A stretch of 64,000 nucleotides of DNA, from NCBI GenBank assembly GCA_025055675.1, contig JANWWT010000003.1, forward strand, positions 62,001 through 126,000. The letters run 5' to 3'. A model generated the notes under the pieces. It saw only the letters and a program-made list of their open reading frames with translations. It did not search any database and was not told the origin of the DNA. The stretch comes from Pseudanabaenaceae cyanobacterium SKYG29. GTDB lineage: Bacteria > Cyanobacteriota > Cyanobacteriia > Pseudanabaenales > Pseudanabaenaceae. Position numbers and translations under genes: made by a program. Below, piece by piece: positions 36,397 through 37,633 of the stretch (positions are counted from its first letter, which is position 1; each line of letters begins with the position of its first letter).

Positions 36397-36771
36397 TCAG
36401 TCTGCCTCAGGGCGCAACCAGGAAAAAGAAAACCACGGCTTTTTGGTGGGATAGTTCTGACTGAACTGTAACCGATAGACCTCATCTTCAGCTTGAGTTT
36501 CCAACAGCAGGTCGCTGCGGGCATAACCAATGCAAATCAGTCCATACCCCTGCTCCTGTAAATAGCGGGATAAGCCTATCCCTTCCCGTTGATCGATCGT
36601 GCCTGCTTTGATCTTGACAGCGCAGGTAGTACAAGCGCCCGCACAACAGGCAGAGGGTAAAATAATTCCCTGTTTTTCTAAAGCATCAAGAATGTATTCC
36701 TGGTCAGATACCAGTCCTGTATAGGTTTGCCCCGATCGTTTGTCGTAGATTTCCACCCGATAATTTGGCAT
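36397..36771 (-). CDS. Plant-type [2Fe-2S] ferredoxin
   Basis: This 124-aa protein contains the [2Fe-2S] cluster motif C-x4-C-x2-C in CCAGACTTC and the distal fourth cysteine in LICIGYARSD. The body resembles photosynthetic ferredoxins, but it is about 25 residues longer, with a C-terminal tail YPTKKPWFSFSWLRPEAD. It is more like the low-abundance ferredoxin paralogues than PetF, which is about 98 aa. An extra cysteine precedes the first ligand (SACCAGAC). Electron donor and acceptor are unknown. Confidence 0.85.
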   Translation of the reverse strand: MPNYRVEIYDKRSGQTYTGLVSDQEYILDALEKQGIILPSACCAGACTTCAVKIKAGTIDQREGIGLSRYLQEQGYGLICIGYARSDLLLETQAEDEVYRLQFSQNYPTKKPWFSFSWLRPEAD

Positions 36772-36784
36772 ACGCTCAGTGATA

Positions 36785-37633
36785 TTAATTAATTAACTTC
36801 CCTTGGGCAAAGGCGCGGGCCAGTCTATCGCACCGATCGTTATCTAGGTTACCAGCATGACCCTCTACCCAGTGCCACTCTACGTTGGGATGGTTGAGAG
36901 CTTGCAGTCTCTGCCAAAACTCTTTGTTTTTCACAGGCTTCCTTCCCTTGGTTAACCAACCGTTTTTCTGCCAGTTTCTGATCCAAGTAGTAATACCGTC
37001 TTTTATGTAACGACTGTCTGTATAGAGAGGGATTTTTTGTTTCTGGAGATAAGGTTGGCAAAATTTTAGGGCTTGAATGACAGCTTCTAATTCCATCTGA
37101 TTATTGGTAGTGCGTTCTACTCTCCCCCCCCACTCTTTGCTGCTGCCATCACTAAACTTGACCACAGCTGCCCATCCCCCTGGACCAGGATTATCTGTGC
37201 AGGAACCATCGGTGTAAACCGCAGTAATGTAATTGTCGCTCCCTGACTCTTCTAGAGAGGGACAGTCCAGGGTGTCATTTTCTTGGTAAATTTCTACGGC
37301 AACCGAACCCTGAAAGTTAGGAATAGGGGGATGCTTAATCACCTTTAGGCGAATCTTAGTGATGCGTTTATCTTTCAACAACTCTGTCACGATCGCCCCT
37401 GCCAATCTTTCTACCAAAGCAAACTTGCTGGTCTTGATTAAATCCTCGATTGTCTTGATACAGTGGCGGTAATCGATCGTGTCGTTAATATCATCGCTCT
37501 GGGCTGCCCGCAGAAAATCTACCCATAGTTCCGCATCCACTTCAAACCATTGCCCTAGGACATTTTCCTCCGGTAGCAAGCCCACGTAGCCATAGGCACG
37601 CACGCCCCGTAGATAAATTTTGGACTCTGCCAT
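36785..37633 (-). CDS. Fused dihydroneopterin aldolase (FolB) and RNase HI (RnhA)
   Basis: One 282-aa frame joins two enzymes. Residues 1-118 are FolB of folate synthesis, with expected active-site residues Glu22 (in PEENVLGQ), Tyr55 (TIDYRH) and Lys100 (IRLKVIKHPP). A short linker of about 17 residues rich in Ser, Glu and Asp follows. Residues 136-280 are RNase HI, with the full catalytic set Asp142 (YTDGSC), Glu181 (MELEAV), Asp206 (YTDSRY), His259 (VEGHAG) and Asp269 (RCDRLA). The start is ATG 37633; 13 further in-frame residues upstream are not needed. Both halves look intact, so both activities are likely. I know of no functional link between folate synthesis and RNA-DNA hybrid removal. 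Confidence 0.9.
   Translation of the reverse strand: MAESKIYLRGVRAYGYVGLLPEENVLGQWFEVDAELWVDFLRAAQSDDINDTIDYRHCIKTIEDLIKTSKFALVERLAGAIVTELLKDKRITKIRLKVIKHPPIPNFQGSVAVEIYQENDTLDCPSLEESGSDNYITAVYTDGSCTDNPGPGGWAAVVKFSDGSSKEWGGRVERTTNNQMELEAVIQALKFCQPYLQKQKIPLYTDSRYIKDGITTWIRNWQKNGWLTKGRKPVKNKEFWQRLQALNHPNVEWHWVEGHAGNLDNDRCDRLARAFAQGKLIN

Follow-up and report, generated by a model that had tools for sequence, protein, structure and literature searches.

Fusions that involve RNase HI and fusions that involve dihydroneopterin aldolase (FolB, or DHNA) have been described in separate contexts. SCO2299 of Streptomyces coelicolor joins RNase HI to an acid phosphatase (PMC1950709; NCBIfam NF005567), and the RNases HI with a dsRHbd hybrid-binding domain, such as eukaryotic RNase H1 and that of Bacillus halodurans, carry an extra domain beside the catalytic one, usually at the N-terminal side (PMC1950709). 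FolB is joined to other enzymes in the eukaryotic FolB-FolK-FolP fusions (PMC4224340), and the DHNA of E. coli and S. aureus is known to form octamers (PMC4176595). Runs of nine A (A9) are known to cause transcriptional slippage in bacteria, for which dnaX of T. thermophilus is the model (PMC1088944; PMC5009743). A literature search covering few subscription journals returned no description of a folB-rnhA pairing or of an A9-dependent form of it, and neither gene is mentioned in the main text of a frame-transition survey covering 1106 genomes (PMC3711429). The FolB-RNase HI fusion reported here is, apparently, undescribed so far.

The window, that is, the whole 64,000-nucleotide stretch analyzed from the cyanobacterium SKYG29, holds on its reverse strand one 282-codon frame that opens with an ATG at 37633, closes with a stop at 36785 to 36787, and has no internal stop. 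The features of the locus are as follows.

36785..37633, reverse strand: folB-rnhA fusion gene, 282 aa plus stop; uninterrupted frame with Pfam and NCBIfam matches for both domains, conserved in the genus.
37289..37618, reverse strand: FolB (dihydroneopterin aldolase) domain, residues 6-115, with Glu22, Tyr55, Glu75, and Lys100; PF02152 at 108 bits, aligned to solved DHNA chains, residues invariant.
37229..37276, reverse strand: linker, residues 120-135, of low confidence in the model and without internal ATG, GTG, or TTG.
36809..37225, reverse strand: RNase HI domain, residues 137-275, with Asp142, Glu181, Asp206, His259, and Asp269; PF00075 at 152 bits, E. coli RNase HI alignment and fold match, residues invariant.
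36397..36771, reverse strand: plant-type 2Fe-2S ferredoxin gene, 13 bases past the fusion stop; context, outside the fusion.

An earlier note on this DNA, made from the letters alone, had read positions 36785-37633 as a single uninterrupted frame for two enzymes. This reading is borne out, as the same uninterrupted frame is present in two genomes of the same genus (G002, with 81% identity, and G001, with 73%), which means that the fusion is not an assembly error; that source is also ruled out by the 30 genomes that share the architecture. The FolB part matches PF02152 (4.6e-31, 108.1 bits against a cut-off of 31.8) and passes the TIGR00525 equivalog (89.4 bits, cut-off 72.15), while the RNase HI part matches PF00075 (1.6e-44, 151.9 bits, cut-off 25.8) and passes the NF001236 equivalog (173.8 bits, cut-off 160). 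All the catalytic residues that the note had listed are present, with Glu75 of FolB as an addition, and they are invariant across 18 fused orthologues; the FolB residues align with solved DHNAs and those of RNase HI with the E. coli enzyme. In the AlphaFold2 monomer model (pTM 0.54), two folded domains flank a disordered linker, with pLDDT below 50 at residues 121-132. By fold comparison its nearest solved structures are RNases HI, and sequence comparison matches the FolB part to DHNA chains.

The source genome (2.56 Mb, 97% complete) contains one PF00075 match and one PF02152 match, both within the fusion gene. The search for separate folB and rnhA copies that the note had proposed thus found none by Pfam profile, and the fusion gene is the sole copy of both. 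Since the genome search returned no other folB or rnhA, each part most likely keeps its ordinary job. Both folK and rnhB (RNase HII) were also found, which gives the cell a neighboring reaction of the folate pathway and another type of RNase H; because RNase HII is present, RNase HI need not be essential.

The same architecture was sought across cyanobacteria, as had also been proposed, beginning with 38 genomes of the order in eight genera (g1 to g8). The in-frame fusion is present in 30 of them (g1, 3/3; g3, 1/1; g5, 26/26), a frameshifted folB/rnhA form in three (G033 of g6; G036 and G037 of g8), adjacent but separate genes in one (G003 of g2), and genes that lie apart in four (g4 and g7). 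The order in which the genera branch was not resolved by trees of the FolB domain, the RNase HI domain, or RpoB. The RNase HI of g7 (G034 and G035; L117 and L119) has 42-43% identity to the query and a long branch, its FolB having 67-70%, and may have been replaced by transfer, judging from these sequences. Besides its fusion, G029 of g5 has a second, weaker RNase_H match of 57 bits (G029:C1:1468755-1469078). A ferredoxin gene adjoins the fusion in G002 and was not seen near it in other genera. No conserved operon partners emerged: the ferredoxin, sigma-factor, and CHAD neighbors are kept within g1 only, and G001 shows the CHAD side only.

Outside the order, FolB and RNase HI are also fused in frame, over 358 codons, in one genome of family f50 (G340). 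Its FolB and its RNase HI both group with other cyanobacteria, away from the order of the window (separating branches with support of 98 and 90), which suggests that this is a second fusion, apparently independent of the first. In two genomes of family f9 (G172 and G328), folB and rnhA share a frame and follow each other directly, folB first, with one stop codon (TAG or TAA) to separate them; a third (G329) has folB just upstream in a different frame, and in two more (G070 and G082) folB lies on another contig than rnhA. The class-wide FolB matches were listed down to about E 1.7e-30, and additional fusions may exist in the class beyond them. The long FolB frames of G389, G412, G471, and G397 were ruled out as fusions, as they consist of an open stretch before FolB and contain no RNase H. 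A proA-like frame, which we take to be gamma-glutamyl phosphate reductase, precedes folB in both G340 (L159) and G397 (L163), and the folB concerned in G340 is the one fused to rnhA. The RNase HI of many other cyanobacteria ends in a strongly conserved stretch (GYLITSSELADLMDVNASAVTSRGDNWVWRNWVVSRVRREGNQILWQLERVD) that looks helix-turn-helix-like by eye and gave no Pfam or NCBIfam match above cut-off; the FolB-RNase HI fusions lack it.

3' part of the rnhA frame (L036, L038, L039, L041, L043, L044, L046-L048, L052-L056, L126, L127): C-terminal stretch of ~75 aa.

The frameshifted form was found in Pseudanabaena sp. PCC 7367 (G033; 6 kb of its contig C1 are identical to plasmid NC_019690.1) and in the two species of g8. 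Here the folB frame overlaps an rnhA frame shifted by -1, and an exact A9 run lies within the overlap in all three genomes (TC-A9-GTCG in G033, GCT-A9-TCC in g8). The junction of G033 is located at about 1942588 of its contig C2. No ATG, GTG, or TTG occurs in their rnhA frame from its opening to the catalytic TDG, and in the separate rnhA genes outside g6 and g8 an ATG or GTG precedes this motif. The overlapping frame is the sole RNase_H match in both g8 genomes, while G033 has one other that is weak and below the cut-off; none of the three holds another RNase HI over the family cut-off. Given an rnhA frame without a start codon and no other RNase HI above the cut-off, FolB-RNase HI is apparently the sole route to RNase HI in these genomes, by slippage or -1 frameshifting at A9, and FolB alone would be the unshifted product. 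One extra A would yield fusions of 348 aa in G033, whose FolB alone would have about 169 aa, and of 280 and 284 aa in g8. Exact A9 runs number 34 in G033 and 14 in each of the g8 genomes, both strands together, and by our arithmetic from these counts the chance of a coding-strand A9 in the overlap is ~8e-5 for the 22 bases of G033 and ~9e-5 for the 37 bases of G036. This reading of A9 draws on three assemblies, two of them metagenomic. The junction of the window gene has no run of nine, the longest run in its linker region being 4. An A8 run, the longest among the in-frame fusions examined, occurs in the linker of the in-frame fusion of G029 (L009 / L123).

We consider it probable, as one joint reading, that the window gene encodes a genuine fusion of two enzymes, sole folB and sole rnhA of its genome, with ordinary jobs, displayed on a FolB ring, derived from neighboring genes, and decoded through A9 slippage or -1 frameshifting in g6 and g8. 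One polypeptide would begin with an active-looking dihydroneopterin aldolase and end with an active-looking RNase HI, connected by a flexible linker, and each part would do what its family usually does, namely the aldol cleavage of a pterin for folate and the cutting of RNA in RNA-DNA hybrids. As DHNAs of known structure are octameric, RNase HI is probably carried on a FolB octamer, with several copies displayed around the ring. The two genes would have been neighbors before they were fused, a plain path that the adjacent-gene states of g2 and f9 suggest. Genera g6 and g8 would make FolB alone as the main product plus a fraction of FolB-RNase HI through slippage or -1 frameshifting at A9, so that slippage would set the dosage of the fusion in some lineages. 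A bolder version, which we regard as improbable, is that RNase HI sits deliberately on the FolB octamer, where A9 slippage controls its dosage in g6 and g8, that the folate enzyme is thereby a scaffold for hybrid removal, and that the pairing arose at least twice in cyanobacteria.

The earlier note had allowed for a link of folate-dependent nucleotide supply to ribonucleotide or hybrid removal and for a neutral gene fusion. That neighboring genes simply lost the intervening stop, the domains staying independent and their linkage being without consequence for the cell, has a little under an even chance of being right. It agrees with a disordered, poorly conserved linker of 10-66 aa among the fused genes, with the single stop codon between the same-frame genes in f9, and with the separate genes of g2, g4, and g7. 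Pure drift is nevertheless opposed by the retention of the fusion in 30 of the 38 genomes, by its apparent second origin in G340, and, in two genera with a broken frame, by its persistence through an A9 run. Folate supply and hybrid removal may be functionally linked, but this is a suggestion, considering the same variable linker and the same separate genes. RNase HI might additionally be freed from the fusion, either through translation from an internal start or through cleavage of the linker by a protease. Some GTG, TTG, or ATG lies in the stretch from the PPIP that ends FolB to the TDG in 25 of the 30 fused genes, and the linker is predicted to be disordered. However, these codons are mostly GTG and TTG in the last strand of FolB, plain Val and Leu codons of that domain, and five of the 30, the window gene among them, have none. 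An internal start is thereby ruled out for the window gene, whose product is most simply one polypeptide, and a separate RNase HI strikes us as very unlikely. The true fusion and co-translation put forward in the note are therefore supported.

Two further alternatives concern the A9 junction. The nine A could stem from a fault in sequencing or assembly, or from a recent decay mutation, in which case the true gene would have ten A and be an ordinary in-frame fusion (or RNase HI would have been lost). Homopolymers are error-prone in sequencing, and draft assemblies do hold broken genes, such as the rpoB of G001 and G035, which is in pieces. Against this, three assemblies from two genera all have exactly nine A, always with a -1 shift and always within the overlap, and the RNase HI domains of these genomes score 149-156 bits with intact motifs. 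The overlaps of G036 and G037 also fit selection on the rnhA frame, although just four bases differ, of which three are synonymous in the rnhA frame, against a single one in the folB tail. We find an error or decay unlikely. The shift could instead come from ribosomes that slip into the -1 frame on the slippery A run, rather than from slippage of RNA polymerase. The run of G033 includes A AAA AAG in register for such a shift, and that of g8 has A AAA AAA; yet no RNA structure beyond that of shuffled sequences was detected downstream in any of the three genomes (z of 0.23, 0.15, and 1.41), which speaks against such a structure as a stimulator in g6 and g8, and transcriptional slippage at A9 runs is documented (PMC1088944). 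Ribosomal frameshifting is thus conceivable though somewhat doubtful, and transcriptional slippage is favored for both genera.

Under the preferred reading of a genuine bifunctional fusion, about thirty cyanobacterial species tie an enzyme of folate synthesis to the one RNase HI that was found in them. In Pseudanabaena sp. PCC 7367, RNase HI appears to depend on a misread A9 run, which offers a testable case of programmed slippage in a cellular housekeeping gene. The fusion is, furthermore, a testable case in which the oligomer of one enzyme possibly serves as a platform for another, unrelated enzyme. An automatic annotation of the genomes with A9 may list rnhA as absent or disrupted.

The protein of the window resembles SCO2299 in that a bacterial RNase HI domain shares its polypeptide with an unrelated enzyme (PMC1950709). 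However, RNase H is N-terminal and the partner is a phosphatase in SCO2299, whereas here RNase HI is C-terminal to FolB, and the NF005567 match of the window protein reaches 19.5 bits against a cut-off of 326, over the RNase H part only. It shares with the dsRHbd RNases HI an extra domain beside the catalytic one, but the hybrid-binding domain binds nucleic acid, and FolB is an enzyme for pterins that has an active site of its own. Like the eukaryotic FolB-FolK-FolP proteins, it joins FolB to another enzyme; the partners there catalyze consecutive steps of folate synthesis, while RNase HI lies outside that pathway. Finally, the g6 and g8 form recalls dnaX of T. thermophilus, with an A9 run in a coding region and two products from one gene (PMC1088944), which in the cyanobacteria we infer from sequence. 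Slippage in dnaX leads to a shorter product, whereas in g6 and g8 it would give a longer one to which a second enzyme is added; the window gene has no such run. Each domain is an ordinary member of its own family, and, as RNase HI fusions and FolB fusions are known separately, what appears to be new is their pairing.
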